This document shows positions 3-24,513 of a DNA stretch of 43,846 bases, piece by piece; within the stretch, counting starts at the first letter, position 1; every line of letters starts with the position of its first letter. The notes under the pieces were generated by a model. That model saw nothing but the letters and a program-made list of their open reading frames with translations. It was not told the origin of the DNA and made no database searches. Source of the DNA: Bdellovibrio sp. (GTDB taxonomy: Bacteria > Bdellovibrionota > UBA1018); assembly GCA_016185105.1 (NCBI GenBank), contig JACPOE010000002.1, forward strand, positions 1 to 43,846. The letters are read 5' to 3'. A program made the position numbers and the translations under genes.

Positions 3-140
3 AAAATGGTCGCCTTTGGCGATGGCGAAAAACTCACAGAATCGAATCGACTAGAAATCAAAATTGCACGGACCCGCCTTCCTGTTTTTCGAGGAGAAAA
101 GGCCCGAGTCACCTCGGAAAGAAGGGAAAACATCCAATGA
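3..140 (+). CDS. C-terminal fragment of an unknown protein
   Basis: An open frame runs in from before the window and stops at a TGA at 138-140, which overlaps the ATG of the next gene (137-139) in an ATGA arrangement. The same coupling recurs through the downstream operon, which supports this as the real end of an upstream gene. Only about 45 residues are visible, ending ...SERRENIQ, and they are rich in charged residues. I see no recognisable domain, so no function is given. An internal ATG lies at 6-8, but the frame is open to the window edge, so the gene most likely starts outside. Confidence 0.6.
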   Translation, partial: KMVAFGDGEKLTESNRLEIKIARTRLPVFRGEKARVTSERRENIQ

Positions 141-1171
141 AAGTCTTTATAACTGGGGCGACGGGTTTCCTGGGCAAGCAAGTTCTAAACCTTCTACTGA
201 GCGACCAGCGCATCGAACAGGTTGATTTGGTCTCTAGAAAGAAACTCACTCATCCCGATCCCAGAGTAAGAGTCCACCAACTGGATTTGTCTGAGCCCTG
301 GTCAGAGTACGATTTTCTGGAGGAGTCCGATGCCATCATTCACCTTGCTGGCCTCTACGACTTTAAAGAGAATTTTAGCCAAAATTATCAGCAAAATGTT
401 TTGCCAATTCTGAATCTAGTAGATCGAGTTCGAGATCTTAAACGAAAGCCCGCACCTCCAATCCTTTTTGCGTCCACCTACGCTGTCGGGTTTGGTGGCG
501 ATCAGGTTTTAAAGGAGGAGCCACTCAAAGTCCTCCCTCCCACCTATCAGTCCTACGCCTATACAAAAGCAGTAGCCGAAAGGGCTTTGACAGACTCAGG
601 CTTGGCTGCTCACATTTTCCGTCTCGGCATCCTTGTCGGAGACAGTGTAGAAGGACACTTCGAGAAGATTGATGGTCCCTATTATCTGATGCGTTTCTTG
701 GAGACTGCCAAAAAGCTTCCGCTTCTAAGATTTCTAAAAAGAATTCCCCTTCCCTATTCTCCCAATGGCTTCCTACCCTTGGTACCCGTCGATAGCGCCG
801 CTCGGATTTTTTACGAGGCCCTATTTCTTCCAGCGCTACTAGAAGGGGAGCAGCATTACTACGGGGTCTTCAATCCAGAAAGCGTTCAGGTGGAACTTTT
901 AGGAAGAAGTATCTTTAAAGAGTTTCTCCCCGGAGCCGAACCGAGACCTTTGCATAAAGAATTTCCTCACTGGATTGAAAAAAACCAAACGAAGCTGACT
1001 GGAATTCCCAAGGAGTTTTTTAATTTCTCCATTGCACCCGTCATGCTCGAAAATCCAAAATTTGTTTCCACCTTTGGTGCTCACCGAGTTCCTCATTTCA
1101 ATGAATTTCGACTAACGTTCTTCAAAGGATTTCATCGATGTTACAAACCGAATTCAGCAATGGCTCAGTAA
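137..1171 (+). CDS. Extended short-chain dehydrogenase / NAD(P)-dependent epimerase-reductase
   Basis: 344-residue extended SDR. The nucleotide-binding glycine motif GATGFLG sits at residues 7-13, and the catalytic YxxxK is YAYTK at 140-144. Family members act as sugar epimerases, 3-beta-hydroxysteroid dehydrogenase-like enzymes, OleD-type 2-alkyl-3-ketoacid reductases or fatty-acyl reductases. The neighbours (acyl-ACP-reductase-like and OleC-like genes) favour an acyl or ketone substrate over a sugar; that is inference. The start overlaps the upstream stop by ATGA. The 3' end overlaps the next gene by 34 bases. It is probably cytosolic, with no signal peptide or clear membrane segment. Confidence 0.85.
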   Translation: MKVFITGATGFLGKQVLNLLLSDQRIEQVDLVSRKKLTHPDPRVRVHQLDLSEPWSEYDFLEESDAIIHLAGLYDFKENFSQNYQQNVLPILNLVDRVRDLKRKPAPPILFASTYAVGFGGDQVLKEEPLKVLPPTYQSYAYTKAVAERALTDSGLAAHIFRLGILVGDSVEGHFEKIDGPYYLMRFLETAKKLPLLRFLKRIPLPYSPNGFLPLVPVDSAARIFYEALFLPALLEGEQHYYGVFNPESVQVELLGRSIFKEFLPGAEPRPLHKEFPHWIEKNQTKLTGIPKEFFNFSIAPVMLENPKFVSTFGAHRVPHFNEFRLTFFKGFHRCYKPNSAMAQ

Positions 1172-3258
1172 GCCCGAAACAAAAAGAACGGAAAATCATT
1201 GTTATCAATTTCCTCCAAACACTCCCTGTTCGTGAGGAACGCATTGAACACCCCCCTCTGACTTTCACAGTTCGAGAGCACAGCGTGGGATGGAACTTCG
1301 ACGCCGCTGAAAGCTTAATCCGAACCTACGACGGCTACGCAGATGGTTTTGCCTTTAGTGGAATCCAAAAACATCTGGGTGTTCCTGGCGCCTATGTCCA
1401 CCATCCCGCCTACCTGAGGTTAATGAGGATGGCCACCAAGACTCCAATCTATGTGGCAGACGATTTGAGGGAATTTTTCACGGAATGGACTTTAAAAAAG
1501 GTTTTGCTGGAGCAACCACAGATTTTCTTTAAGAAAAAGGTTTTGTTCCAGGTGGCAACTGCGTCATCGTCTTTGGGCCAGATTGCTGAATCAGGGGCGG
1601 AAATCTTGGCGGCCGATCCTTTGATGATTTCCAGCACTCCAGTTCGTTTGCACGGAATGAGCCAAATTCGGCTCTTTGCTAAGGTTCTTACGCCCTTCGC
1701 AGGTCCAATCACCTTTAATTTAGTGCGCCCGGCGCGGTATTCTCGAAAGCAAAACCACTGCAGTACCCTCGGAAATTGGATTAAAGAAGCAGATATTTTC
1801 GTAGGCTTCGGAAATATCATTGCTGCTATGGAATCCTTCGAGCCATTCGCGGGAAAAATTCTTGTCGTTGACCATGTGGACATTTCGACACGAAAACGAC
1901 TCGAAGAGGCTGGGGTCGCCCAAATTATTGATTTTGTCCCCGAGAGCGCCGTCCGCTCGATGCCAGAATCGAAGCACTTTCCCGTATTGGCTGCCGTCAT
2001 CGACCAGACACGCATTTTTGAAAACTCTCAGCTTGGCTTTTCGGACTATTTGTTAAGGTGGCTCGAGCAAACCAAAGTCAGTCCAAAACCTCTTAAGACC
2101 TCAAGAGGGATCAAACGACGGTGCGCTTTTATTTTCCACGCACTTACTCAGAAAGACCTTTGGACCGTTCCAAGTACAAAGCCGTTTAGAAGGGCACCCA
2201 AGTTTATTAGGGACTTCGCCGAAGACGCCCTTTCAAATCTTCCCTGTCTTTATGTAGGAAATCTGACGGGCGTCGTGAGCCAGGCTACTGGCCAGGAAGT
2301 CGAATGCGATTTTTACGGCTTTCCCGCAACTCCTCGCGGTATTTTGGCAATGAAAGAGGAATACCTCTATAAGCGAATGATTCAATGTGCAGAACAGGCC
2401 CGCAGACGCGGAGCCGGGATCATTGGTCTGGGTGCCTACACAAAAGTCGCAGGCGACGCAGGCGTGACTATTGCCAGAAAGGCGTCCATTCCAGTTACTA
2501 ACGGAAATTCCTACTCAGCGGCCACTACCCTTTGGGCAGCACGACAAATGGTGGAAAGGCTGGCACTCATTTCGCCCGAGAGAGTGGGTAACCGATTCAA
2601 AGCCAAGGCCATGATCATTGGCGCAACTGGAAGCATTGGGCGGGTATCCTCCCTATTGGTCTCTTTGGTCTTTCAAGAGTTGGTGCTTGTGGCAACCCGG
2701 CCCGATAAACTCATCGAGCTTCGAGAGGAAATCAAACGTCTCTCACCAGAAACAAAAGTTACCGTAACAACCCAATCTAGTTCTGAAATTATGGATGCCG
2801 ATTTGATTGTGACGGCCACATCCAATCAGCGGGGCAGCGTTCTTGATATTGAGCTCGTCAAGCCTGGTGCCGTCATTTGTGATTGCTCACGGCCCTTAGA
2901 TATCACGCAAGAACAGGCTGCCAAACGGCCAGACGTTTTAGTCATTGAGAGCGGCGAAGTCATTCTTCCCGGACACCCTAAACTTTCCTTTGACATCGGA
3001 CTTCCCCATCCTTCGGTCTACGCCTGTACAGCCGAGACGGTCCTACTGGCACTCGAAGGGCGCTTCGAAAGTTTCTCTTTGTCCAAACAGCTCTCGCTGG
3101 AAAAGACAAAAGAGATCTACAAGCTTGGGGTTAAACACGGCGCTAAATTGTCGGCAGTGCAAGGTCCGGCAGGAATCATTACGGATGAACAGATTGATCG
3201 GTGTCGCAGTCTAGCACTGGAACGATTAAAGACCTGGCAAATTGGAGCAGCATCATGA
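1138..3258 (+). CDS. Two-part protein: unknown N-terminal domain + acyl-ACP reductase (AAR)-like C-terminal half
   Basis: 706 residues. From about residue 330 to the end it follows the layout of cyanobacterial long-chain acyl-ACP reductase (about 340 residues). There is an opening hydrophobic strand, the segment GLGAYTK, then a TNGNSYSAA stretch, a Rossmann glycine motif GATGSIG at 495-501, and YACTAE with Cys630 aligned to the AAR active-site cysteine. AAR reduces fatty acyl-ACP to an aldehyde using NADPH. The first ~325 residues look like a separate alpha/beta domain (for example VGFGNIIAAMESF) that I cannot assign. No aldehyde-deformylating oxygenase is visible here, so any aldehyde would have another fate. 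The start at 1138 has AAAGGA about 8 bases upstream and lies inside the 3' end of the SDR gene. The stop overlaps the next start by ATGA. Confidence 0.78.
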   Translation: MLQTEFSNGSVSPKQKERKIIVINFLQTLPVREERIEHPPLTFTVREHSVGWNFDAAESLIRTYDGYADGFAFSGIQKHLGVPGAYVHHPAYLRLMRMATKTPIYVADDLREFFTEWTLKKVLLEQPQIFFKKKVLFQVATASSSLGQIAESGAEILAADPLMISSTPVRLHGMSQIRLFAKVLTPFAGPITFNLVRPARYSRKQNHCSTLGNWIKEADIFVGFGNIIAAMESFEPFAGKILVVDHVDISTRKRLEEAGVAQIIDFVPESAVRSMPESKHFPVLAAVIDQTRIFENSQLGFSDYLLRWLEQTKVSPKPLKTSRGIKRRCAFIFHALTQKDLWTVPSTKPFRRAPKFIRDFAEDALSNLPCLYVGNLTGVVSQATGQEVECDFYGFPATPRGILAMKEEYLYKRMIQCAEQARRRGAGIIGLGAYTKVAGDAGVTIARKASIPVTNGNSYSAATTLWAARQMVERLALISPERVGNRFKAKAMIIGATGSIGRVSSLLVSLVFQELVLVATRPDKLIELREEIKRLSPETKVTVTTQSSSEIMDADLIVTATSNQRGSVLDIELVKPGAVICDCSRPLDITQEQAAKRPDVLVIESGEVILPGHPKLSFDIGLPHPSVYACTAETVLLALEGRFESFSLSKQLSLEKTKEIYKLGVKHGAKLSAVQGPAGIITDEQIDRCRSLALERLKTWQIGAAS

Positions 3259-4233
3259 GTAGAACCTATTTTAATCGACTCAATTACACGTTAGCCAATG
3301 AGGACACCCGCTTCGAAATGAACCTTCTTCCAAAAGGGGTTTCTCATTTGGTCTCCGTAGCAGGAAGTGGTGGTAGGGTTTTGCCCCTATTGGCTAAACA
3401 TCCGAAAGAAGTCACCTGTGTCGATCTGAGCCGAGAGCAACTCTATTTGACGGAACTCCGAATGGAGTCGGTGAAAGCGCTGACACATGCTCAATTTGTT
3501 TCCTTTTGGGGCTACCCTCCTCACCCTGCCGAACCAGAAGAGAGAAAAAGGTTATTTAGGAAAATAAGCTTAAGCCCCCCTGCAAAAGGGTTTTTCTTAG
3601 ACGTGTTTGAACACCATGGATGGCAAAGCATTCTGTACGCTGGTAGCTGGGAGCAAACCATCGCAAAACTGAGTCGAGTGAATCGTCAGATTACTGGAAT
3701 GAAAGGTATTGGTCTTTTTACCGCTTTAAATCAGACAGAACACTTGGCTTACTTGAAGAACCGCTTTCCTACCTACGCATGGGCCCTGACTTTGAGTGTC
3801 CTCGGAAATGCAGGAGTGTTTAACGCCCTCCTTTATAAAGGTCATTTTCCAAAGAAAAACTTAAAAGATTCCAGCTTCCATTTTTATCAGGAGTCTTTCA
3901 AAAGAATTTTTGCCCAAGGACCCGCGCGGGAGAATTTCTTATTGCAGCTGATTTTCTTTGGAAAGATTTTGTTCCCAGATGGACCTGTTGTCCTTTTCAG
4001 ATGTGCCCTCGTACTTTAGCGGGGAGACCGAAAAGTCCTTCATGCAAAGGATCAAAAAAGGCCTCGCACCCAATGGAATGGTTGTGATTCGAAACTACCT
4101 TAGGATTCCAGAAGGTACCGATTACTCCGGCTTTCAACGAGTCACCCCGAGTTACCAAGATCTGATCGATCAGGAAAAAGTTCAGCTGTACTCGATTGAA
4201 ATATTCAAGAAGTCTAAAAATGAACTGCATTGA
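3255..4233 (+). pseudogene. DUF3419 / BtaA-like aminocarboxypropyltransferase, frameshifted
   Basis: The gene starts at ATG 3255 (ATGA overlap with the previous stop) and reads in frame to a stop at 4019. The family's C-terminal part, with SFSDVPSYFSG and a final LAPNGMVVIRNY strand, continues in another frame to 4233. The DUF3419 family includes BtaA, which moves the 3-amino-3-carboxypropyl group of S-adenosylmethionine onto diacylglycerol; the SAM-site motif VAGSGGRVLPLL and VDLSREQL are present. Around 3969-3985 the text jumps from FFGKILFP to DLLSFSDVP. From memory of the family some 40-50 residues normally lie between, so this is a deletion as well as a frameshift. It may be a real mutation or an assembly error. 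Confidence 0.7.
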
Positions 4234-5644
4234 CCTTTTCCAAAAGCGGGTGAATGAGACCCCAAATAAGATGGCTCTTTTGATTCCCGGCAAGGAGAGG
4301 GCCACGTTTTTGGAACTTCAGAACGTGGGATCGAAAGCGCAAGGCTTGCTGCTCGAAAATGGGGCCAAGCCTGGCGATGCCGTATTACTCTTGGATACCC
4401 TTGGAGTCCGCCTCTACGGATGCATTTCCGCCCTTCTCTCGCTTGGCTGTTCGGTGATTCTAGTAGAACCCTGGATGCCGGTGGCCAAAATCCAGAAAAT
4501 GATCGAGCTTGCCAAACCTAAGTTCTTCTTAAGCAATCCGATCGGATTTCTCTGGGGAGCAAGGGTTCAGGCCATTCGCAACATCCCCCGTTGGATTCGA
4601 ATAGGCAAGATTGCGTCTCAAACACGAAAACCAGGACCTTTGATTTTAGAAGAACTTGCTCCCGAAACACCCGGAATCTTAACTTTTACTTCTGGAACTA
4701 CGGGTGATCCAAAAGGAGTGGTAAGAACTCAAGGCTACTTGATGAAGCAGCACGAGGTTTTGGCCGAACACCTCCATGCTGAACAATACCCAGAGCCTGA
4801 TCTCTGCATTTTCGCAAACTTTGTTCTCTCCAACCTAGGATCTGGACGAGGTTCAGTGATTATTCCACCGGCTTGGAAGCCAGAGACTCTAGCATCGATT
4901 GATCACCTTCCACGAGAATACCAACCTGTCACGCTAACCACTGGGCCCGCCTTCTTGCTGCAACTTCAAAAGCACGCTCAAGCCAATTCTCTCAGGGCAG
5001 TTCACGTCGGAGGTGCCCTCACAGATTGTGCCATCTTTGAAAGAGCTTTTGAAAGATGGCCCACGGTCCATTGGGGACATATTTACGGAGGAAGTGAAGT
5101 CGAACCCGTGGCGGTCACAGATGCTCGTAAGGCGGTTGAGTTCAGCCGAAAGAAGAACTATTTTCAAACCTTATTTTTGGGAGAAAATGTCTCGCAAATC
5201 AGTCCCCGGTTTGAAACCGACACACTCTGGGTCGCAGGCCCTCACGTTTGCCCTGAATATCTTGGAAATGAGAAAGAAAACAGAATCTACAAACACAAAG
5301 ATGCCAGTGGACGGCTTTGGCACGCCATGGGTGATCGAGTGAAGAAGGATGAATCAGGCTGGTGGTATATGGGGCGATCTGGCCAGCCCCTAGAAGAATT
5401 TCAATTAGAACAGGATCTTTATTCTTTCCTGGGATCCAGCAAGAGTTTTGTACTGATGCAAGGCGGGCAAAAAACCCTTGTAGGTGAAAATCTTAGAGTC
5501 CGAAAGCCCGAGATTTTGAAAAACTTTCCTCAAATCAACGCCGTCTGTGAAACTCGAATTTTTCGGGATCGTAGGCACCGTGCGCGAATTGACCGAAAAA
5601 AGAGCATTGAAAAAGGACCGTCATGGCTGCAGAACAAGAATTAA
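4220..5644 (+). CDS. AMP-dependent synthetase/ligase, OleC-like
   Basis: 474 residues from ATG 4220; a TTG at 4196 is in frame but less likely. Adenylate-forming (ANL) motifs are clear: TFTSGTTGDPKGVV (A3, ATP phosphate loop), IYGGSEVEP (A5), WHAMGDRV followed by GWWYMGRSG (A7/A8), and near the C-terminus FRDRRHRARIDRKK, which resembles the A10 region of OleC-type enzymes. OleC proteins convert beta-hydroxy acids to beta-lactones; other ANL enzymes make acyl-CoA or acyl-ACP. The motif style and the neighbouring SDR point towards OleC, but OleA and OleB are not in view, so the exact substrate is unknown. The start overlaps the broken DUF3419 gene by 14 bases and the end overlaps the UbiA gene by 22. 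Confidence 0.8.
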   Translation: MNCIDLFQKRVNETPNKMALLIPGKERATFLELQNVGSKAQGLLLENGAKPGDAVLLLDTLGVRLYGCISALLSLGCSVILVEPWMPVAKIQKMIELAKPKFFLSNPIGFLWGARVQAIRNIPRWIRIGKIASQTRKPGPLILEELAPETPGILTFTSGTTGDPKGVVRTQGYLMKQHEVLAEHLHAEQYPEPDLCIFANFVLSNLGSGRGSVIIPPAWKPETLASIDHLPREYQPVTLTTGPAFLLQLQKHAQANSLRAVHVGGALTDCAIFERAFERWPTVHWGHIYGGSEVEPVAVTDARKAVEFSRKKNYFQTLFLGENVSQISPRFETDTLWVAGPHVCPEYLGNEKENRIYKHKDASGRLWHAMGDRVKKDESGWWYMGRSGQPLEEFQLEQDLYSFLGSSKSFVLMQGGQKTLVGENLRVRKPEILKNFPQINAVCETRIFRDRRHRARIDRKKSIEKGPSWLQNKN

Positions 5645-6531
5645 CCTCTCCTCTTATCCATCCTATTAGCTCGACCCAGCGCTGGTTCGTTTTTCTGAAG
5701 GAACGATTTCCGTTAGGGACGCACATCCTTCTCATAGGCGGCTTTGCTGTCTCGGGAGCTTTTCTTAGCGGCTGGGACAAAAATACCGAAGGCGTGATCA
5801 TGGCGCTGATCGGTTTTTTCCTTTTCTTTGTCGAACTGCGAATCATGGATGAGCTGAAGGACTACAAAAAGGACCTATCTGCCCATCCAGAGCGCCCCCT
5901 TCCTCGCGGGTTAATCCAACTCGGGGAAGCGCGAGAAATGGTGAGAACTTTACTGAATTCCATGTTCGGGTTCTCCGTGGTCTTAGTCTTAGTTTGCAAT
6001 TTGCTTTCGGGACTTCTCTTTTTCTGTATCACCCTCTACCTCAAACTGATGTACCGTGAGTTTTACCTTGGGGATCGACTGGGGAAATATCCCTTTTTCT
6101 ACGCTTTTACTCATCAGCTCATTCTATTTCCGCTCTGTTTTTTTACATCCGCTGTGCACCACCCCGCCATGGTCTTTGATGAGGATGGCTTTGCTTATGC
6201 GATTGCAACCTTTGGGGCCTTTTTTGCTTATGAACTTTGCAGAAAATTAGATCCGAAAGCTCCATTAATTTTAAAGAACTATGCAACCCATTATGGACCC
6301 CGCAAAACGGTTTTAGTAGCTACACTCCTTTTGGGCACAGCAGCCTATGGGGCCTTTCACCTCAATGCCCGCTTTTTGTGGGGGATTGAAGTACTCACCA
6401 CTGCTAGCTTGATTGTTTACTTAAGAGATTCCAGAAAATTCAAAACGGTTGAGACTTTCGCGGGCCTTTCCCTCGTTCTCCATGTTTGGGCTCCGGCTAT
6501 CCACTTTCTTTTGAAGAAATTTATTCACTAA
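5623..6531 (+). CDS. UbiA-superfamily prenyltransferase
   Basis: 302-residue membrane protein with about eight hydrophobic segments. The first Asp-rich motif appears as RIMDELKDYKKD (residues ~71-82), followed by PERPLPRG, the usual continuation in UbiA proteins, where Mg2+ and the prenyl diphosphate bind. The second Asp-rich loop is poorly matched; ELCRKLDPKAP may be its counterpart. UbiA enzymes join a polyprenyl chain to an aromatic, heme or glycerol-phosphate acceptor in the inner membrane. A good ribosome site (AAGGA) precedes ATG 5623 inside the end of the previous gene. Sitting between an ANL enzyme and a phosphotransferase, it probably works on the same lipid product; that is inference. 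Confidence 0.78.
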   Translation: MAAEQELTSPLIHPISSTQRWFVFLKERFPLGTHILLIGGFAVSGAFLSGWDKNTEGVIMALIGFFLFFVELRIMDELKDYKKDLSAHPERPLPRGLIQLGEAREMVRTLLNSMFGFSVVLVLVCNLLSGLLFFCITLYLKLMYREFYLGDRLGKYPFFYAFTHQLILFPLCFFTSAVHHPAMVFDEDGFAYAIATFGAFFAYELCRKLDPKAPLILKNYATHYGPRKTVLVATLLLGTAAYGAFHLNARFLWGIEVLTTASLIVYLRDSRKFKTVETFAGLSLVLHVWAPAIHFLLKKFIH

Positions 6532-6540
6532 GAGGCAGTT

Positions 6541-9282
6541 ATGAATTCGACCCTACTCACTTCTTCTGATTCTATCGAAAAGTTAGTTCGCTTTGGTGGC
6601 GGTAAGGCCACCAATTTGGCAAGACTGTCTCAAGCGGGTTTCCCGGTCCCGAGATGGTTCTGCGTCTCTTCGCAGGCTTTCAACTATTTTGTTGAGCTGA
6701 ACTCCCTGAAGGAATTTCTCTCTCAAAAGCGAGAAAACCTGAAAGAGTTTGCTTTGCAGGTTGAAGAGCGCTTCTTAAAAGCCGAATTGCCGGAAGACCT
6801 CGAGCAGATCATTGCTCACAAATTGGCGGAGTCAGGTTTGGATCAGGGTTTTGTTGCGGTGCGATCGAGTGGATTAGACGAGGATTCCGCTCAAAACTCT
6901 TTTGCGGGTCAATTTTCTTCTTTCCTTTTTCAGAAGGGAAAAGAGCAGATTTCTCAATCCCTCAAAAAATGCTGGGCCTCTGGATTTTCCGAGCGAGCCC
7001 TCAGCTACCGCATTGAAAGGGGAATCCCTTTAGAGGGAATTCAAGTAGGCGTTGTGATTCAAAAAATGGTGAATGCCGAAGTGGCTGGAGTGGTCTTCTC
7101 CAGAAATCCGATTCACCCGACCGATAGATCGACCCTGATGATCAGCAGCGTATGGGGTCAAGGTGAGGGGCTAGTGAGCGGCGAGCTGGATGCCGACCAT
7201 TTTGAAGTCCAAAGGAAGTCTTTCGAATCTAAAGTTACCGTTGTTCCTAAATCGCACCTTCTGGTCCAATCACCGACAGGAGGACTGCTGAAACAAGAGC
7301 TCTCAGAGGATAAAAAAGCCGTTTCAAGTTTAACTCGGGATCAGGTCACGGAAATTGCGAAGCTCTCCTTGGAACTTGAAAAGAGTCTTGGCTCACCTCA
7401 GGATGCTGAATGGGCAATCGAAAACTCGAAGATCTATCTGGTGCAAACTCGCCCAATTACACATCTGCCCTGTGATGCTTTTTTTGATGCGAAAATTAAC
7501 GGTGATTTCGGAATCCTGTGGGACAACTCAAATATCATCGAAAGCTATAGTGGTGTCACCTCACCCTTGACCTTCAGTTTCGCTAGTGGTGCTTATCGCC
7601 AAGTGTACATCCAATTCTGTGAACTGGTCGGAGTTCCGAAGGACGTCGTGGCAAGCCATGAACCGATGTTCAGAAACATGCTGGGCCTCATCCGCGGTAG
7701 AATCTATTACAATTTAATTAACTGGTACAAGCTGGTTCTTCTTTTGCCTGGCTCTTCGAGCAATAAAGGCTTCATGGAAACCATGATGGGCGTGAAGCAG
7801 AAGCTCAAGCCTGAGATGGCACGAATTTTTGATGAAGTTGCAAGCCCCCCCGAATACTCGTTCTTCAAAAAACTCTCTGTGAATACAATGACCCTGTGGC
7901 GATTCATTCGGATCGACTCTATTGTCGGTGGATTTCAAGACCATTTTAGAAAGCTCTATGAAGGCTATAGAAAATTGGATTTCCGAAAAATGTCCCTTAA
8001 CGAGCTCTCCGGCATTTTTCAGGAGCTTGATGAGAAGGTTTTGCGCCAGTGGAAAGCACCAATTATTAACGATTACCTCTGCATGGTATTTTTTGGATTA
8101 CTCAAAAAGCTGACTGAGAATTGGATTGAAAAGGGAGATTCGGCTGCTTCGCTCCAGAATGATCTTTTATGTGGCCAGGGAGAGCTAGAATCAACAGAAC
8201 CTACAAAGATGCTTATGCGCATCGCGGAAAAAATCGATTTAGGTCGAGGAGATTTTCGAGACTGGATTTCTACGACCAAGTCCGACGAAATTTGGAGTGC
8301 TTTTAGGAACCAGGCGGGTCCAGCAAAGCTATCGCCCGAAATCGTCTCGCTCTTTTATGAATTCTTAGACAAATATGGCTTTCGTTGCATCAATGAGCTG
8401 AAATTGGAAGAAACCGATCTTCACGATGATCCTAGTTTTGCCTTAAGTGCGATCTCAAGCTACGTGAGGATGAAAAGCTACTCCATCAGCTCCATGGAAG
8501 AACGAGAAAAGGAAATCAAGAAGAAGGCAGAGGACACCGTTCGAACTAAGCTTTCAGGGGTCCGCCTTTGGGCTTATATGTGGATTCTGAAACAGGCGCG
8601 AAAGGCTGTTAAAAACCGAGAAAATCTAAGGTTTGCAAGAACCAAGATTTTCGGGGTAGCCCGCCATTTGTTTCGTGGGATGGGACATGCCCTCACTGAG
8701 CTCGGCCATCTCGACCAACCCAAAGACGTCTTTTTTCTCACCGTTGAAGAACTCCAGGCGTTTGTCGAAGGACGAGCAATCTCAGTCCATCTCAAGCCCA
8801 TCATTGCTGCTCGGAAAGCAGAATACGAAGAGTATCGCCAGACCCTCGATCCCCCAGATCGCCTGATTACTATCGGCGCTGCGTGTGCCACTTTTGTCTA
8901 TCCGCAGATTCTGGCCGATTCAGATTTATTGCGAAACGAAACACCCCTTTCCACTGACCCAAATGTTCTTGTGGGAACCCCATGTTGTCCGGGCGTAATT
9001 GAGGGAACAGTCCGTGTGGTCGAGAATATTCAAGATGCCGATGGTATGTCTGGCGAAATTCTAGTTACTGCACGTACTGACCCAGGCTGGGTACCCTTGT
9101 ATCCTTCCTGTTCTGGACTATTGATAGAAAGAGGGAGCTTACTCTCTCACTCGGCAGTGGTAGCTCGCGAGTTAGGCTTGCCTACGATTGTTGGCATTTC
9201 AGGTGGCTTGATGACAAAATTGAAAACCGGACAAAAAGTCAGAATCGACGCCGCAAAAGGCGAAGTGAGGATACTAGCATGA
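6541..9282 (+). CDS. PEP-synthase/rifampin-phosphotransferase-like ATP-His dikinase
   Basis: 913 residues in three parts. Residues ~15-310 are the PEP-synthase-type ATP-grasp domain (GGKATNLARLSQAGFPVP; RSSGLDEDSAQNSFAGQ; ending with VQTRPITH). A ~450-residue middle region is unlike the PEP-binding barrel. The C-terminal swivelling phosphohistidine domain has LLSHSAVVARELGLPTIVG with His870. This order (ATP-grasp, substrate domain, His domain, no PEP barrel) matches rifampin phosphotransferase, in which ATP phosphorylates the histidine and the phosphate passes to a small-molecule hydroxyl. Here the acceptor is more plausibly a pathway intermediate than an antibiotic. RBS AGAGG precedes the ATG, and the stop overlaps the next start (ATGA). 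Confidence 0.8.
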   Translation: MNSTLLTSSDSIEKLVRFGGGKATNLARLSQAGFPVPRWFCVSSQAFNYFVELNSLKEFLSQKRENLKEFALQVEERFLKAELPEDLEQIIAHKLAESGLDQGFVAVRSSGLDEDSAQNSFAGQFSSFLFQKGKEQISQSLKKCWASGFSERALSYRIERGIPLEGIQVGVVIQKMVNAEVAGVVFSRNPIHPTDRSTLMISSVWGQGEGLVSGELDADHFEVQRKSFESKVTVVPKSHLLVQSPTGGLLKQELSEDKKAVSSLTRDQVTEIAKLSLELEKSLGSPQDAEWAIENSKIYLVQTRPITHLPCDAFFDAKINGDFGILWDNSNIIESYSGVTSPLTFSFASGAYRQVYIQFCELVGVPKDVVASHEPMFRNMLGLIRGRIYYNLINWYKLVLLLPGSSSNKGFMETMMGVKQKLKPEMARIFDEVASPPEYSFFKKLSVNTMTLWRFIRIDSIVGGFQDHFRKLYEGYRKLDFRKMSLNELSGIFQELDEKVLRQWKAPIINDYLCMVFFGLLKKLTENWIEKGDSAASLQNDLLCGQGELESTEPTKMLMRIAEKIDLGRGDFRDWISTTKSDEIWSAFRNQAGPAKLSPEIVSLFYEFLDKYGFRCINELKLEETDLHDDPSFALSAISSYVRMKSYSISSMEEREKEIKKKAEDTVRTKLSGVRLWAYMWILKQARKAVKNRENLRFARTKIFGVARHLFRGMGHALTELGHLDQPKDVFFLTVEELQAFVEGRAISVHLKPIIAARKAEYEEYRQTLDPPDRLITIGAACATFVYPQILADSDLLRNETPLSTDPNVLVGTPCCPGVIEGTVRVVENIQDADGMSGEILVTARTDPGWVPLYPSCSGLLIERGSLLSHSAVVARELGLPTIVGISGGLMTKLKTGQKVRIDAAKGEVRILA

Positions 9283-10307
9283 ATACACCCTTTCAACTCT
9301 ATGCACGTTCGCAAACCACCGACGAAAACGGATTTGCCACTCGGTTCGCAGGGGCCCAAGATCAGATCAGGAAAGACCCCTACCGAATTGGCCTTCCACC
9401 TGTCGAACTCGGTAAAAGATTCATTCAAATGAGAATGCCGTTTGAAACTGAGTTTTGGGTTGCAGAAAATAGCAGTGGAGCCCCGCTTGGACGGATTGCG
9501 GCGAACCTTTCGGCTCGTTTCCCCAACACTGGATTTATCGGTTTCTTCGAAGGGCAATCCTTTAGTGTTGCGAACGCATTAGTTCAGGAAGCCCTAAGTT
9601 GGCTGAAAAAAAGGGGAGTCGATGAAGTCTATGGGCCGGTCAATTTCAACACTTGGCTACCCTACCGCTTTCGAATCCACCCAGACTCCTCGCCTGTTTT
9701 CGCCTGGGAACCGATAAATCCGCCAGAGTATCCGATTTGGTTCGGAGAGATGGGATTCTCCGCAGATCATCTCTACCACTCTGATGGACTGGATGGGTTA
9801 AACGGAATATTAGAGGGCACAAGCAAAGATTACGAAAAGGCTTTAAAAGCAGGTTATACGTTCCGTCCCGCAGACACTGAGGCACTCCTAGAAAAAGAAG
9901 TCCCGATTCTCTACAAGCTGAGCATGCCTTCGTTCAGGGAAAACTTTCTTTTTGAGCCGGTTCCATATGAATTTTTTAAACAGCTTTATGTTCCCCTTGC
10001 TAAAAAAGCGGATGTCAGTCTAGCTCGGTTTGCATGCGACCCTCAGGGAAACGAGGTGGCTTTCTTTTTCAACTTTAAGGAGGGAAACTCCATGGTTTCT
10101 AAAACTGTAGGAGTCCTCCCTCAAGCCAGAGGACTTGGCCTCTCGAATGCAATGTTACATTCCGCAGCCCAAGCCGCGATCGAACAAGGCCTCTCGGGTT
10201 CGGTGATGGCGTTAATGAAATCTGGGATTCAGAGTGAGAGCTACGGAAAGAAGCAAAATCGAATATGGAGGCATGAGTACGTTCTCTTCAAAAAGGAGTT
10301 GAGATGA
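9279..10307 (+). CDS. GNAT-superfamily-like acyltransferase
   Basis: 342 residues, soluble, no signal peptide. The N-terminal half has FETEFWVAE...GRIAANLS..., then GFIGFFEG and AWEPINPPEYPIWFGEMGF, a layout seen in large GNAT-like proteins. The C-terminal part carries TVGVLPQARGLGLSNAML, which fits the GNAT acetyl-CoA-binding (Q/R)xxGxG/A strand-loop-helix, and ends with WRHEYVLFKKEL. It probably transfers an acyl group to an amine, or is a degenerate relative. It is coupled at both ends by ATGA overlaps, so it belongs to the same operon as the dikinase and the exporter. The substrate is unknown. Confidence 0.65.
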   Translation: MNTPFQLYARSQTTDENGFATRFAGAQDQIRKDPYRIGLPPVELGKRFIQMRMPFETEFWVAENSSGAPLGRIAANLSARFPNTGFIGFFEGQSFSVANALVQEALSWLKKRGVDEVYGPVNFNTWLPYRFRIHPDSSPVFAWEPINPPEYPIWFGEMGFSADHLYHSDGLDGLNGILEGTSKDYEKALKAGYTFRPADTEALLEKEVPILYKLSMPSFRENFLFEPVPYEFFKQLYVPLAKKADVSLARFACDPQGNEVAFFFNFKEGNSMVSKTVGVLPQARGLGLSNAMLHSAAQAAIEQGLSGSVMALMKSGIQSESYGKKQNRIWRHEYVLFKKELR

Positions 10308-11086
10308 ATTCTCTTTACACCTTGGAGAGCCTTCGCTTTCGTTACCAGACCGGACGTCAGTCGGTGGAAGCCCTCAAAAAGATTAGCTGCACTATTGAAT
10401 TGGGTGATTTTATTTGCCTCAGTGGTCCATCAGGAAGTGGAAAGAGTACCCTTTTGAACCTCTTGGGATTAATCGAACCACCCCAAGAGGGCCTACTCGA
10501 GTACCGGGGTCAAAATCTAAAAGGAATGACAGATCAGGAGCTCAACCAAATCCGAAAATTTGAAATCGGTTTTGTGTTTCAATCCTTTAATCTTTTTCCA
10601 GTCCTCACAGCCCAAGAAAATGTGGAATATTTTCTGACCCGGCAAGGATTGAAAAATAAAGAGCGAAAAGAACGGTCTCAGAAAGCTCTAAAGTCGGTCG
10701 GACTTTGGGAACACCGAAATCAAAAACCTTTAGAAATGAGTGGCGGACAGCGGCAACGGGTCGCAATCGCCAGAGCTCTGGCAAAAGCACCCCGAGTGAT
10801 CATTGCGGATGAGCCCACCGCAAGCTTGGATCAGAAAACCGGCCAGGAAATTATGAATCTCTTTCTGGAAGCAAATTCTCTGCTCGGAACGACCCTATTG
10901 GTCTCTAGTCACGATCCGCTAGTTCAAAAAGCTTGCCCGATCCGCTTTCATTTGGTCGATGGGGTCTTAAGGGAACAGGAACAGAATCAAAATTTAGATT
11001 GGTTGGTCGGAGTCGTTGCGGTTCCACCGAAATTTGTGCCTCCCGGAAAAACTAGGACCGAGGCAAGTTCTGTGAGGGAATTATGA
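10304..11086 (+). CDS. ABC transporter ATP-binding protein, LolD/MacB type
   Basis: 260 residues. The Walker A motif is GPSGSGKST (~41-49), the Q-loop region is VFQSFNLFP, the signature is MSGGQRQRVAIARAL, Walker B is VIIADEPTASLD, and the switch is SSHD. LolD and MacB ATPases drive extraction or export at the inner membrane of lipoproteins, lipids or small molecules. The protein is about 30 residues longer at the C-terminus than standard LolD. A clear AAGGAG lies just before ATG 10304, and both ends overlap neighbours by 4 bases. It pairs with the permease that follows immediately. Confidence 0.92.
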   Translation: MNSLYTLESLRFRYQTGRQSVEALKKISCTIELGDFICLSGPSGSGKSTLLNLLGLIEPPQEGLLEYRGQNLKGMTDQELNQIRKFEIGFVFQSFNLFPVLTAQENVEYFLTRQGLKNKERKERSQKALKSVGLWEHRNQKPLEMSGGQRQRVAIARALAKAPRVIIADEPTASLDQKTGQEIMNLFLEANSLLGTTLLVSSHDPLVQKACPIRFHLVDGVLREQEQNQNLDWLVGVVAVPPKFVPPGKTRTEASSVREL

Positions 11087-12288
11087 CCTTTCGTCTGGCG
11101 TTGCTGAATTTGACCCGCAATATGAGGCGCACCCTGGCAGTGCTCTTGACGGTGGCGCTGGGCAGCGGCTCCCTTTTTGTTTTTCATGGGTTTAATTTTG
11201 GAATTATGAATCAGTACCGGGAGAATACTGTCCACTCTCGATATGGCCATGGCCAAGTAAACACCCTGGGTTACAGAGACCTTGTTTATGAAAAACCCTG
11301 GGAACACTGGATAGGGGGATGGAGTGCCGTCGCCACCCAGCTAAAAGAGATCCCTGGGGTCAAACAGATCTTCCCGAGAATTGGATTCTACGGACTACTC
11401 ACGAATGGTCAAATCAGCGTTAGTGGCCGAGGCCAAGGGGTCGACGGCCTTGAAGAATCCAAGTTTTTTACAAACCTAAATATTGAAGAAGGCGTGGCTC
11501 TCTCTGATCAGCCTGATGGGATGGTTTTAGGAAAGGGACTTGCCCGGTCGTTAGATGTCAAAGTGGGAGGCCGAGTCACCGTTTTGGTCAATACCGTGAA
11601 CGGTACGATGAACGGGGGTGACTTCACAGTGGTTGGAGTCTTCCACACCGGAGCCAAAGAATTTGATGATGCGGTTTTTCGAATTCCGCTGGCTCAGACT
11701 TTTAAACTTTTAGACACAGATCGAGTCGAATCAATCGCCATCGGACTAAACGATGAAAAAGACTGGGGCAACGTAGTCACCTCTCTTAAGTCTCATTGGC
11801 CTGAACTTGAAGCCACGCCCTTTGCCGTATTGGACAAGGTCTATTATCAAAACTCAGTCGACTGGCTCAAATCTCAGTTTGGAGTCATTCAGGTTATCAT
11901 CCTAACCATAGTGGTGCTCGGAATCTTCAATACAATCTCCACTGGGGTACTGGAGAGGAAAAGTGAGATTGGCAACCTGAGAGCCAATGGCGAGTCTGTC
12001 CGAGATGTCCTAAGCTTGCTCAGTCTTGAGGGGTTGGCTCTGGGATTGATCGGATCTGGGTGTGGCCTTTTAATCGCCTGGTTATTCAATGTCATCTTTC
12101 TCAAAAATGGAATCTTGATGCCGCCTGCCCCTGGCCTTACCCGTCAGTACCATGTGTTTATTGAATTTGAGCCTATGATGGGTTTGTGGGCGGTTTTAAT
12201 GAGTTCGTTCACAGCTCTAGTGGCAACAATCGTTGCCTCGAATCGAGTAGCCCGTTTACCCATTGCAGAAGCATTGAGGTCTGTATGA
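11083..12288 (+). CDS. ABC transporter permease, FtsX/LolC/MacB type
   Basis: 401 residues with the expected topology: one N-terminal membrane helix (~17-40), a large periplasmic domain (~45-260), and three C-terminal helices (~266-290, ~314-340, ~365-388) of the FtsX domain. The motif ERKSEIGNLRANGES lies in the cytosolic coupling loop typical of LolC/LolE/MacB. Only one permease gene is present, so it probably forms a homodimer with two copies of the ATPase. Together with the LolA-like gene that follows, it looks like a dedicated Lol-style route for hydrophobic cargo. The stop TGA overlaps the next ATG. Confidence 0.9.
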   Translation: MTFRLALLNLTRNMRRTLAVLLTVALGSGSLFVFHGFNFGIMNQYRENTVHSRYGHGQVNTLGYRDLVYEKPWEHWIGGWSAVATQLKEIPGVKQIFPRIGFYGLLTNGQISVSGRGQGVDGLEESKFFTNLNIEEGVALSDQPDGMVLGKGLARSLDVKVGGRVTVLVNTVNGTMNGGDFTVVGVFHTGAKEFDDAVFRIPLAQTFKLLDTDRVESIAIGLNDEKDWGNVVTSLKSHWPELEATPFAVLDKVYYQNSVDWLKSQFGVIQVIILTIVVLGIFNTISTGVLERKSEIGNLRANGESVRDVLSLLSLEGLALGLIGSGCGLLIAWLFNVIFLKNGILMPPAPGLTRQYHVFIEFEPMMGLWAVLMSSFTALVATIVASNRVARLPIAEALRSV

Positions 12289-13007
12289 AATTTTTAGCTG
12301 CAGTCGTCCTTGTTTACTCCATTTCATCTCTGGTCGGCGTCGCCTCCACTGAACGGAAGTTTTCCGCCTCCCAAATCTTAAAAAAAGCGGACGAAGTCAG
12401 AAATCCCGGCGAAAGCTATTCGATGAAAGTTGAAGTCATCAACGGCGGCACTAGTGATGGATCTCGATCCCTTTTTGAAGTCTCAGTTCGCGGCAATGAC
12501 AAGACATTGATTAAAACTCTAGAGCCGGCCCGTGATCGAGGCCGAAATATGTTGATGCTCAAAGAAGACATGTGGGCCTTCATTCCTAATCTGAACCGTG
12601 CAGTCAGAATTAGCCTTGCTCAGAAATTAACAGGTCAAGCAGCCAACGGAGACATTAGTCGGATGCGTTGGAGCGGAGACTATACAGCAACCATTGAAGG
12701 TGAAGACGCACACCATTGGATATTATTTTTGACTGCCGAAAAAAAAGGCCTGACCTATGAAAAACTTCGGGTTTGGATTGAAAAAGGGAATTTCCACCCA
12801 AGCAAAGCTGAATTTTTAACTCTAGCAGGGAAACCTTTAAAGACTGCTTTGTATACTGACTATCGAAACTTAGCCGGTGGTATTCGTCCCGGAACAATTC
12901 AGATTCAAGATGCCATCCGCCAAGATCAGATTTCATCAATCCACCTGAAAGACGTTAGGATTGAAGAATTTCCGGAGTCTGTTTTTAATCAGAACGCTTT
13001 AAAGTAG
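12285..13007 (+). CDS. LolA-like periplasmic lipid/lipoprotein carrier
   Basis: 240 residues from ATG 12285, which overlaps the permease stop (ATGA); an in-frame upstream start at 12186 would remove the signal peptide and is less likely. Residues 1-~21 form a signal peptide (MKFLAAVVLVYSISSLVG then an A-S site). The mature part follows the 'outer membrane lipoprotein-sorting protein' family: SMKVEVINGG, a Lys-Thr-Leu strand, DMWAFIPNLNRAVRIS, and DISRMRWSGDY. The LolA fold has a hydrophobic groove that shields lipid tails in the periplasm. Its place directly after a LolCD-like pair suggests it receives the cargo that transporter releases. Confidence 0.85.
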   Translation: MKFLAAVVLVYSISSLVGVASTERKFSASQILKKADEVRNPGESYSMKVEVINGGTSDGSRSLFEVSVRGNDKTLIKTLEPARDRGRNMLMLKEDMWAFIPNLNRAVRISLAQKLTGQAANGDISRMRWSGDYTATIEGEDAHHWILFLTAEKKGLTYEKLRVWIEKGNFHPSKAEFLTLAGKPLKTALYTDYRNLAGGIRPGTIQIQDAIRQDQISSIHLKDVRIEEFPESVFNQNALK

Positions 13008-13014
13008 TTTTTTT

Positions 13015-14289
13015 ATGAATTTCCCGTTTAGAGGCTTGGTGTTCCTCTTCTCTTTGATGGCCGCTTCTGCGGCATTTTCGGAATCCTCCTTATCCAACCC
13101 CACTGCCGAGTTGGGTTATCAGAATTCTTTTCTTTTGGGCTCCGACTCTAACCGGGCCGTGGGATCAAATCCGACGCTGCTGACTCGATCCTTGTTCTAT
13201 TTTCAACCAGCATGGGCTCCCTCCTTTCGGATTGGAGATAGAACTTTTGAAACTCAAATGAAAGTCAGGGCCTGGCTAGATACAATACCGGGCGGATTTC
13301 AGTCCGAATTCAGCCTTCGAAATTTCTCAGTATCGACTGCACAGAGCCAGTGGCGCTTAGTAGCTGGGTTCCAGGAGATTGTTTGGGGAGAAACTTTTGG
13401 ATTTCCGGTTTTGGATTTGGTTAGCCCTCGCGACTTCAGAGACCCTCTTTTACTCGATGCAAACTGGGTAAGACTACCCACAGCCTCGTTGAACGCCCAG
13501 TACTTTTATGGGCAGACTACTGTTCAGCTGGTGATAACCCCTTTCGCACGGAGTCCAGTTTTTCCCAATTCTGGGTCCCCTGTAGACCCAACTCTTGGGA
13601 CCCCGGGAGTTTCCCTGAGGAACACCTCGGGAACTGACCTAGGAGGGATTGCTGGTGCTGAGTTCGGTGGAAAACTCAGTCACCTGTTTAGCAATGGAAT
13701 GGATGTGGGTCTGATCTATTTTCATCACTGGAACCGAAACCCCGTTTTTAGAATTTCACCCACCTCACCTCCGGGAACCTTCTTAGTATTACCCACGGAA
13801 CAGAAGGTCGAAACGCTTGGGTTTACTTTTAGCGCGAGCTTCGATTCCTGGGTGATCCGCTCGGACCAAGCAGTTCACCTGAATCAACCCCTCCAGACAG
13901 GAACATTGGGGACGGTTTCAAACGGCGCACAGTGGCAAAATGTGCTCGGAGCCGATTACACAGGCACTGATGAGTGGAGTCTGGGAATTCAGCTCCAGAC
14001 TACCCTTCAAATTTGGGACGGTGGAACCTTGGCACAGAAATGGGCCAGCGGAAGAATGACCAAAAAGTGGTTCGACGGTAAGGTCGAAGCAGAGCTTTTT
14101 GTTCTATCTGGATTAGATAATCCTGATCTGTGGCTACAGCCCAAGCTCACCTGGAACTGGGGAGACTCTTGGTCCCTGGCTCTACGGGCTGACTGGATCG
14201 CCTACAAAGGAGGGGCTCCCTCGCGGGGGAACCTCTGGATTGTTCGGGATCAAAGCCGCTTGCTCAGTTGGTTGACGTATAAACTTTAA
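13015..14289 (+). CDS. Outer-membrane beta-barrel candidate (DUF1302-like)
   Basis: 424 residues with a signal peptide (first ~22 residues, ending near SAAFSES). The rest is rich in alternating hydrophobic strands and aromatic girdle residues, for example LTWNWGDSWSLALRADW, and ends with WLTYKL, an aromatic-rich C-terminus typical of barrel proteins. The segment IVWGETFGFPVLDLVSPRDFRD resembles the WGE...PRD pattern I associate with DUF1302-type outer-membrane proteins, which are often encoded beside LolA-like proteins; that family link is from memory. It sits 7 bases after the LolA-like gene and is the last gene of the operon. It is a plausible outer-membrane acceptor or channel for the exported product. 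Its TAA interlocks with the stop of the convergent lipoprotein gene. Confidence 0.7.
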   Translation: MNFPFRGLVFLFSLMAASAAFSESSLSNPTAELGYQNSFLLGSDSNRAVGSNPTLLTRSLFYFQPAWAPSFRIGDRTFETQMKVRAWLDTIPGGFQSEFSLRNFSVSTAQSQWRLVAGFQEIVWGETFGFPVLDLVSPRDFRDPLLLDANWVRLPTASLNAQYFYGQTTVQLVITPFARSPVFPNSGSPVDPTLGTPGVSLRNTSGTDLGGIAGAEFGGKLSHLFSNGMDVGLIYFHHWNRNPVFRISPTSPPGTFLVLPTEQKVETLGFTFSASFDSWVIRSDQAVHLNQPLQTGTLGTVSNGAQWQNVLGADYTGTDEWSLGIQLQTTLQIWDGGTLAQKWASGRMTKKWFDGKVEAELFVLSGLDNPDLWLQPKLTWNWGDSWSLALRADWIAYKGGAPSRGNLWIVRDQSRLLSWLTYKL

Positions 14290-23392: not shown

Positions 23393-23417
23393 ATCATTTT
23401 GATGCAAAAAATCGGTT

Positions 23418-23433
23418 GGTCGCCACGGCGACC
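23418..23433. promoter_or_regulatory. 16-base inverted repeat upstream of parA (candidate operator or parS-like site)
   Basis: GGTCGCCACGGCGACC: two perfect 7-base arms around a central AC. With the flanking T and A the arms extend to 8 bases. It ends 75 bases before the parA start. A second copy with identical arms lies inside parA. Position and symmetry suit binding by the MerR-like head of ParA or by ParB. Confidence 0.5.
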
Positions 23434-23508
23434 AGAAAAATAATATCGATTCCCCTTGCACTCCCTGGCAGTCGGAATAGAATTTTGACATCCCATGGAG
23501 GTGGAAAA

Positions 23509-24513
23509 ATGGCATCCTTTCGAGATCTCTGTTTCACATCAGTCGAATTCGCGAACTTAGCAAAAATAGACCGAACCCAAATTCCTGTTTTGGAAAGCCA
23601 AGGATTGCTCAAAACAGTGAAAAGGAAAATCGGAAGTGCCGAGAGAAAAATGGTCACTCTCGAGGACATGCAAGGTTATTTTCGAGAAATCCGAAGCGGT
23701 CGCCATGGCGACCAGCCCTTTGGGCCCAAAAATCCTACTCATAAAATTCAAATGTTTTACAACGTGAAGGGTGGCACGGGTAAATCGACTCTGACCGCGC
23801 AGTACGTAATGAAAGCCGCAATGCTTGGGCTTCGTGTTTTAGCAATCGATTTGGACGGGCAAGGTCACCTAACCGTTAACTTGGACGTGCTAGACGCTCA
23901 TGAAAGACCCACTGTCTACGACGTACTTATTAATGACCTACCTTTGTGTGATGCCATAATGAATGTAGCCCCCGGCTTGGATTTGGTGCCCGCTAACTTG
24001 GGTCTCTGTAATATCGAAATCCCATTAAACAACAAGGCTAGAAGGGAATACCGTCTTTCAGAAGCAATTCAAAAGATCGCAGATCGTTATGACTTGATTG
24101 TCGCTGACACTAACCCCGCGGCTTCCATTTTAAACGGCTCTATGTTGGTAGCGGCTCAGCTCGTAAATGTAGTCTGTGCTACCAATCCCCTCTCTTTCCA
24201 CGGAATGAGCTTGGTTATGGCAACCATTGAGGAGATGGAAAGAGAATTTAAGCACGATCTGGACGTGAGAATTGTCCCCAATATGTATGATAATCGTGAG
24301 GTCATTAGCCAAGAAGTCTTGGGAGAGCTTCGGTCCCAGTTTCCAGAGAACTGTACCCAGTCTGTGATCAATCGAAGTGCCGACTTAAACGAGGCCACTA
24401 AGCGCCGAACCACCGTTTGGGGGGTAAATACTAAAGGAGTAGCAGCCCAAGACATCAGCGCAATGACTGAAGAACTACTATTTGCACCAGAAAAGGGGAT
24501 CAATCATGGATGA
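23509..24513 (+). CDS. ParA-family ATPase with N-terminal MerR-like DNA-binding domain
   Basis: 334 residues from ATG 23509, chosen because GGAGG lies 7 bases upstream; the frame is open further up but carries no ribosome site. Residues ~5-65 look like a MerR-type winged helix (FTSVEFANLAKIDRTQIPVLESQG...VTLEDMQGYF). The P-loop is KGGTGKST (deviant Walker A of ParA), followed by AIDLDGQGHLTVNL (A') and a Walker B-like LIVADTNP. ParA proteins position DNA or large protein cargos by ATP-driven gradients. An N-terminal DNA-binding domain is typical of plasmid type Ia ParA that represses its own promoter. The partner parB follows with an 8-base overlap. Confidence 0.85.
   Translation: MASFRDLCFTSVEFANLAKIDRTQIPVLESQGLLKTVKRKIGSAERKMVTLEDMQGYFREIRSGRHGDQPFGPKNPTHKIQMFYNVKGGTGKSTLTAQYVMKAAMLGLRVLAIDLDGQGHLTVNLDVLDAHERPTVYDVLINDLPLCDAIMNVAPGLDLVPANLGLCNIEIPLNNKARREYRLSEAIQKIADRYDLIVADTNPAASILNGSMLVAAQLVNVVCATNPLSFHGMSLVMATIEEMEREFKHDLDVRIVPNMYDNREVISQEVLGELRSQFPENCTQSVINRSADLNEATKRRTTVWGVNTKGVAAQDISAMTEELLFAPEKGINHG
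23698..23713. promoter_or_regulatory. Second 16-base palindrome, inside parA
   Basis: GGTCGCCATGGCGACC is a perfect 16-base palindrome that differs from the upstream copy only in the central dinucleotide. It starts 280 bases after that copy, within codons for Gly-Arg-His-Gly-Asp between the DNA-binding head and the ATPase domain. Bases 3' of both copies continue as AG. Confidence 0.5.

Follow-up and report, generated by a model that had tools for sequence, protein, structure and literature searches.

Introduction

Several described bacterial systems share parts with the operon reported here, which lies at the start of contig JACPOE010000002.1 from a Bdellovibrio sp. metagenome-assembled genome (MAG, GCA_016185105.1). 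The window, that is the whole stretch of DNA that we analyzed, is this entire contig (C82; 43,846 bp), and the source MAG has 1.69 Mb and is 82% complete. The closest described systems are the BtaA/BtaB betaine lipid pathway, bacterial sphingolipid synthesis, the prodigiosin and tambjamine pathways (PigE/PigC, TamH/TamQ) together with Rph, the LolCDE-LolA and MacAB exporters and the OleABCD olefin pathway. In bacterial ceramide synthesis the genes are arranged as the sphingolipid triad Spt/bCerS/CerR (PMC11334938, PMC11087976). All enzymes of the operon come from families that are already known, and clusters of genes for unusual lipids are in themselves a familiar kind of system.

We observed that twelve genes form one operon, based on linkage and family assignments. 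The operon misses at least one tested defining feature of each of the BtaAB, Spt sphingolipid, LolCDE, Ole and prodiginine systems. We suggest, with a probability of roughly 0.45, that it encodes a modular and widespread pathway whose product, a membrane lipid containing an amino acid, is exported towards the outer membrane.

Organization of the operon

The full gene order is DAGK-SDR-AAR-BtaA-AMPlig-UbiA-PEPS-GNAT-LolD-LolC-LolA-barrel. Open reading frames (ORFs) were called from stop to stop. The genes are as follows.

3-140, plus strand: DAGK, last 45 codons plus stop codon of a DAGK/YegS-type lipid kinase (C-terminus match to relatives; the remainder is on contig C32)
137-1171, plus strand: SDR, an SDR/NAD_binding_4 reductase, thioester- or aldehyde-reductase-like (Pfam PF07993, 2.9e-20)
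1138-3258, plus strand: AAR, fusion of an N-terminal alpha/beta half (approximately 1-320) and an acyl-ACP reductase-like C-terminal half (profile and structure matches; start codon uncertain)
3255-4233, plus strand: BtaA, broken BtaA-like (DUF3419) S-adenosylmethionine (SAM) aminocarboxypropyltransferase (PF11899, 8e-23 on the 5' piece)
4220-5644, plus strand: AMPlig, AMP-binding (ANL) ligase-like, distantly OleC-like (PF00501, 5e-24; PRK09274, 142 bits, below its cutoff of 478)
5623-6531, plus strand: UbiA-family membrane transferase (PF01040, 2e-10)
6541-9282, plus strand: PEPS, phosphoenolpyruvate (PEP) synthase/Rph-type dikinase (PF01326, 2e-74; PF00391, 4e-19; NF004881, 911 bits, above its cutoff of 883)
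9279-10307, plus strand: GNAT N-acyltransferase (PF13480, 2e-7)
10304-11086, plus strand: LolD/DevA-like ABC ATPase (PF00005, 9e-34)
11083-12288, plus strand: LolC/MacB-like FtsX-type ABC permease (PF12704, MacB_PCD, and PF02687)
12285-13007, plus strand: LolA-like periplasmic lipid/lipoprotein carrier candidate (PF17131, 5e-40, ORF read from 12186; the ATG at 12285 lies in an ATGA overlap)
13015-14289, plus strand: candidate outer-membrane beta-barrel, last gene (position; weak DUF1302 match of a homologue)

Eleven of these genes occupy positions 137-14289 of the plus strand. Their coordinates and families (ORF list, Pfam, NCBIfam) agreed with the initial annotation of this DNA, which had described eleven coupled genes and had missed the DAGK tail at 3-140. 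The operon is therefore larger than described before, since the window opens inside the DAGK gene and the front part of this gene is on C32. The frame from base 3 encodes KMVAFGDGEKLTESNRLEIKI..., which corresponds to the DAGK C-terminus of two relatives (loci L020 and L021; VFGDGETLVRESAIDFKI). In relatives a DAGK-type lipid kinase lies upstream of SDR, and the family, PF00781, was assigned via L021. A search of the same MAG located the front part at G000:C32:2-781 (locus L169), where contig C32 ends. The neighboring gene on C32 is transcribed divergently, therefore DAGK is probably the first gene of the operon. C32 and C82, which share no overlap, presumably adjoin.

Exactly six 4-base ATGA overlaps were present, at 137, 3255, 9279, 10304, 11083 and 12285, in agreement with the six noted in the initial annotation. 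The 3' end of the barrel gene meets a convergent minus-strand gene. Promoter and terminator scans gave no more matches than shuffled sequence.

Linkage of the genes across genomes

The arrangement was conserved far beyond chance. In 55 genomes of the order, PEPS orthologues were found in 19, UbiA in the same 19 (with weak matches in others) and BtaA in 18 of the 19 and in one further genome (Fisher P = 4e-15 for PEPS/UbiA, P = 2e-12 for PEPS/BtaA). AAR was present in 12 genomes, every one of them with BtaA or PEPS. In the homologous regions of these genomes the same genes lay together, and the gene order recurred in many genomes. Of the 290 genomes sampled from the phylum of the window, 91 had a PEPS orthologue, and some of these were single-contig genomes in which the cluster is linked. 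The gene set also occurs in the isolate Bacteriovorax sp. BSW11_IV (locus L156).

A scan of public genomes with a PEPS profile gave 80 loci. Loci beyond the order were collected via PEPS, so their frequencies apply to PEPS-bearing loci, and many of the contigs are short. Contigs were labeled as Bdellovibrionota, Gemmatimonadota, Chloroflexota (Caldilineaceae), Planctomycetota, Fibrobacter, Bacteroidota and others; nearly all of them are MAG contigs, the labels of which may be wrong. Thirty-five loci had flanks of at least 6 kb on both sides; of these, 31 had AMPlig, 29 BtaA, 28 GNAT and 26 a separately called UbiA. The last count is too low, because UbiA is fused to AMPlig as a single protein in 13 loci. 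Fusions of an alpha/beta hydrolase with AMPlig occurred in 6. The nearest recognized gene upstream of PEPS on the same strand was UbiA in 63 of 73 loci. A gene-neighborhood search had been proposed in the initial annotation, and its outcome was linkage conserved across genera and phyla rather than scattered homologues (PEPS with UbiA in 19 of 19 genomes, and the 63 loci mentioned above).

A BtaA-family gene was found in almost every carrier. Outside Bdellovibrionota it is accompanied by HMG-CoA reductase (HMGR), by a DolK/phytol-kinase-like protein, which we named from motifs and which matched no Pfam or NCBIfam family, and often by an MMPL exporter. The companions of BtaA include two unrelated kinds of kinase, DAGK in Bdellovibrionota and the DolK/phytol-kinase-like protein in other phyla. 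The minimal and cleanest example was a run of seven genes, HMGR-UbiA-PEPS-DUF3419-DolK-GNAT-AMPlig, on a complete plasmid of the alphaproteobacterium Roseinatronobacter sp. S2.

HMG-CoA reductase was also observed fused to an APH/EcKL-like kinase domain, in or next to the cluster, at L148:2734-5553 (Pfam-tested). The same unusual fusion was recognized by sequence reading at L119:13999-16758 and L138:748-3510.

We correlated the pairwise distances of the operon proteins across loci. Correlations were high within a block of AMPlig, UbiA, PEPS and GNAT (r = 0.79-0.92) and within a block of DAGK, SDR, AAR and BtaA (r = 0.71-0.96; SDR gave r = 0.89 with AAR and 0.91 with DAGK), and lower between the two blocks (r = 0.20-0.61). 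These values include shared host ancestry, and the informative part is the contrast of within-block and between-block values. The enzymes form two co-evolving blocks, accompanied by an exchangeable exporter.

Identities to relatives showed the same division. Between the window and three genomes of the order (G042, G033, G050), AAR was 55-71% identical, BtaA, LolD and LolC 58-66% and LolA 57-61%, whereas AMPlig and UbiA were only 26-31% identical and GNAT was missing in those three. The pattern was reversed in the comparison with a fourth genome (G044). Hence the middle block was swapped among operons which retained the outer blocks. We also found a second subtype, which lacks GNAT and in which genes for a formyltransferase-like protein and an alpha/beta hydrolase precede AMPlig.

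Another family of the order has clusters with a cytochrome P450 between BtaA and AMPlig (L071:12523-13866) and, nearby, a ceramidase-family gene (PF05875; L071:17615-18367).

Enzymes of the first block

The AAR fusion matched the N-terminal part of PigE (4ppm, 6e-38) and AAR (6jzu, 5e-16) in profile searches, and its predicted structure (AlphaFold, pLDDT 86) had AAR 6jzy and carmabin TAD as top Foldseek matches. In this model the C-terminal half is predicted to fold like acyl-ACP reductase, with Foldseek matches to 6jzy/6jzu, and like the terminal reductase domain of carmabin. The NADP motif GATGSIG is conserved in this half and C630 is invariant; judged by context, not by structural superposition, C630 would be the counterpart of AAR Cys294. 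The fold, the NADP motif and the cysteine, which we used as a test of AAR-family membership, were thus all found in the C-terminal half. The N-terminal half was poorly conserved. Only one of its residues, P155 in fragment numbering, is invariant, and its fold matches were weak and of a generic, two-domain dehydrogenase-like kind. On these grounds we rejected a catalytic role; this half is probably structural or degenerate. We also rejected a viral or mobile origin of AAR, as no AAR was found in viral contigs.

The operon shares with the prodigiosin and tambjamine pathways, and with Rph, an AAR-like thioester reductase together with a PEP-synthase-like dikinase of Rph architecture. It differs from them in that it has no AAR-fused aminotransferase (Aminotran_3, the class III aminotransferase of PigE/TamH, was absent from the AAR protein of the window by Pfam) and no pyrrole genes, and PEPS belongs to its own NCBIfam subfamily, NF004881. 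Elsewhere we observed an AAR-like protein beside one or two PEPS/PigC-like genes at L031:12684-19955, L032:14483-19709, L033:3556-12228 and L034:4795-9725. In L031 and L032 it was demonstrated to form a fusion with a class III aminotransferase, and all four loci resemble parts of prodiginine/tambjamine clusters.

BtaA in the window is broken, as had been annotated before, but by more than a frameshift. Alignment with intact relatives indicated a loss of about 40 codons near base 3975; as the missing stretch of approximately 118 bp is no multiple of 3, the loss shifts the frame. The two pieces align with an intact relative at 60% and 52%, and query residues 261-297 were left unmatched. Relatives carry intact copies; an intact relative matched no solved structure by sequence. 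The operon has in common with the BtaA/BtaB pathway this DUF3419 SAM aminocarboxypropyltransferase (PF11899) and a diacylglycerol-linked theme. It differs by the added conserved set of enzymes and by the separate branch to which its BtaA belongs. In a Pfam search no methyltransferase other than BtaA was found in the operon, and so no counterpart of the N-methyltransferase BtaB.

Enzymes of the second block

In ANL enzymes the C-terminal catalytic residue is a lysine. At this site of AMPlig (approximately 5560-5600) an arginine was present in 50 of 50 members of the subgroup (the window and 49 relatives), whereas distant cluster members keep the lysine, in RHxSK. AMPlig is distantly OleC-like and SDR weakly OleD-like; the scores were far below the cutoffs of the olefin models (approximately 50 bits for OleC, cutoffs 850-900; 23-32 bits for OleD, cutoff 580), AMPlig has the arginine mentioned above, and no OleA thiolase was found in the operon by Pfam. 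The UbiA motifs DExKDxxxD..RPLPRG (first Asp motif) and ExxRK were conserved across 53 loci.

PEPS consists of an ATP-grasp part, a large central substrate domain and a His-bearing swivelling domain. Its closest solved structures are 5hv1-3/5fbs. The motif SHSAVVARELGLPTIVG was recognized, the catalytic-type His 870 is invariant, and no match to the PEP/pyruvate-binding barrel PF02896 was found in PEPS by Pfam. Judged from these motifs and domains, PEPS is an Rph / PEP synthase-type dikinase with the architecture of Rph, in which the central domain takes the place of the PEP/pyruvate barrel. Rph-type enzymes move phosphate from ATP onto an organic substrate.

GNAT aligned with a distantly related Rubrobacter radiotolerans protein over 282 columns (hhalign probability 99.4, E = 8e-22), and that protein sits between an SPT-like enzyme and an SDR. 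This trio is the arrangement of bacterial ceramide synthesis. The trio itself (L167:6644-10008, R. radiotolerans plasmid 1) is likely a sphingolipid-type operon in an actinobacterium. The operon has in common with the bacterial sphingolipid pathway a GNAT N-acyltransferase homologous to the SPT-adjacent one, an SDR, a lipid kinase and proposed outer-membrane traffic, but it contains no Spt. SPT-like genes, none of them above the family cutoff, were found in 50 of the 55 genomes of the order, independently of the cluster, which is present in 19 of the 55. As nearly all genomes of the order have these genes regardless of the cluster, we rejected an Spt-type sphingolipid cluster.

Exporter genes and other genes of the window

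The operon shares with LolCDE-LolA and MacAB export a MacB_PCD/FtsX permease, a LolD-like ATPase and a LolA-like carrier in one run. It differs in that its scores are far below the LolCDE cutoffs and that its last gene encodes a barrel candidate. At another place in the same genome a LolCE candidate scored better (297 bits). The barrel candidate had no Pfam match of its own, and a homologue at the equivalent place in L066 reached 18.7 bits for DUF1302, below the cutoff of 23.2. The gene was kept as the final one after LolA in L020, L021, L026 and L066. In other relatives LolDC, LolA and the barrel are replaced by MMPL, MsbA-type ABC or large FtsX-type permeases. All these types are used for hydrophobic cargo, and such exchange indirectly supports export of a hydrophobic product.

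Two further features of the window were recognized by reading the sequence only. A second UbiA-like protein, with an apparent N-terminal HAD phosphatase-like part, is encoded among glycan genes (33255-34784), and a ParA-like ATPase gene with an N-terminal helix-turn-helix-like stretch lies together with a ParB-like gene (23416-25501).

Discussion

We consider it likely that the operon serves lipid synthesis plus export; our confidence in the specific chemistry is much lower. The initial annotation had proposed a modified acyl or prenyl lipid delivered to the outer membrane. The exporter swaps back the hydrophobic export in this proposal indirectly; the lipid nature, the destination and the kind of chain, acyl or prenyl, stay at the level of inference.

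Every reaction, substrate and location that follows, including the roles of UbiA and PEPS, is what we infer for an amino-acid-containing membrane lipid. AAR would reduce acyl-ACP or acyl-CoA to an aldehyde, and SDR would reduce the aldehyde to an alcohol. BtaA may attach the SAM-derived 3-amino-3-carboxypropyl group to a hydroxyl of a lipid, and the resulting homoserine-ether lipid would carry a free amine. DAGK may phosphorylate a lipid alcohol such as diacylglycerol and so feed or balance the pool of BtaA acceptors. GNAT, perhaps ceramide-synthase-like, would N-acylate the amine, and in the second subtype the formyltransferase-like protein may make an alternative, N-formyl form. AMPlig, the membrane-embedded UbiA (fused to it in several lineages) and the Rph-like PEPS would attach one more activated group, which may be an isoprenoid and/or a phosphate. 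Finally, LolD-LolC would pull the lipid out of the inner membrane, the LolA-like protein would carry it and the barrel would receive it. More tentatively, the product may be a new class of bacterial membrane lipid, aminocarboxypropyl (homoserine-ether), N-acylated or N-formylated and modified by UbiA and the Rph-like dikinase, shared by many phyla and served by exchangeable transporters.

Several observations weigh against this proposal. The break in BtaA may mean that the pathway is decaying here, or it may be an error of MAG assembly. BtaA of the first-block type forms a DUF3419 branch separate from that of other phyla and has no known acceptor. The arginine in place of the expected catalytic lysine suggests that the chemistry of AMPlig may be altered, and canonical adenylation by the subtype-1 enzyme is doubtful. 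The LolD-like ATPase reached 189 of 308 bits, below the NCBIfam LolD cutoff, and the LolC-like permease 95 bits for TIGR02212 with a cutoff of 362. The barrel gene is only weakly identified. Finally, some relatives have HMG-CoA reductase and a DolK-like kinase instead of AAR, SDR and DAGK, which favors isoprenoids over acyl chains.

The last observation leads to a prenyl version of the pathway. HMGR would provide mevalonate, the DolK-like kinase and PEPS would phosphorylate a prenol stepwise, UbiA would link the prenyl chain to an acceptor that AMPlig has activated, and the product would be decorated by BtaA and GNAT. In Bdellovibrionota the host's own mevalonate pathway would make a dedicated HMGR superfluous: HMG-CoA reductase is present in 54 of the 55 genomes of the order (in the MAG of the window at G000:C40:42661-43746), which suggests a mevalonate route to isoprenoids. 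Clusters of other phyla and the Roseinatronobacter plasmid contain HMGR (PF00368), which is fused to a kinase in L148, the DolK-like gene adjoins BtaA, and UbiA is present in every case. However, UbiA members are not restricted to prenyl diphosphates, the operons with annotated genes showed no prenyl synthase, and the Bdellovibrionota clusters have an acyl reductase instead. CTP-dependent diacylglycerol kinases also belong to the DolK family. We find the prenyl version doubtful.

We regard it as rather improbable that the product is a secreted small molecule such as an antibiotic, a siderophore or a signal; in that case the LolDC-like pair would serve as a MacB-type exporter, and the LolA-like protein and the barrel would be accessories. 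PEPS does have the architecture of the prodigiosin ligases PigC/RedH, the AAR half is as in PigE, and the patchy distribution (the 91 of 290 genomes of the phylum) and the plasmid occurrence fit such a product. The LolA-like protein (PF17131), MMPL, DUF1302 and the lipid-kinase partners, however, indicate hydrophobic cargo, and the operon has no nonribosomal peptide synthetase, polyketide synthase or pyrrole genes. A prodiginine-like cluster was ruled out, as the PigE/PigC-like clusters of the order (L031-L034), in which PigC-like genes accompany a different, AAR/aminotransferase fusion, are other loci.

Ordinary betaine-lipid remodelling (diacylglyceryl-trimethylhomoserine or -trimethyl-beta-alanine, DGTS/DGTA) around BtaA, with the other genes as unrelated neighbors, would explain a BtaA-family gene in nearly all carriers, but it is very improbable and its plain form was ruled out, since no BtaB-like N-methyltransferase is among the operon genes, BtaA is co-inherited with PEPS and UbiA, and BtaA and its partner genes stay together across phyla.

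No described pathway with this gene set was found in open-access full-text searches, as the initial annotation had expected, nor a characterized cluster of known product that matches the set; a description outside open access could have been missed.

In summary, this gene set is common in the phylum and reaches many others, yet no product of it has been described in the open-access literature that we searched. The cluster offers a testable route to a lipid, and to a function for a PEP-synthase-like subfamily which databases label as phosphoenolpyruvate synthase. It also points to a lipid-export route built from LolC-, LolD- and LolA-like parts, and illustrates lipid pathways built of exchangeable blocks.

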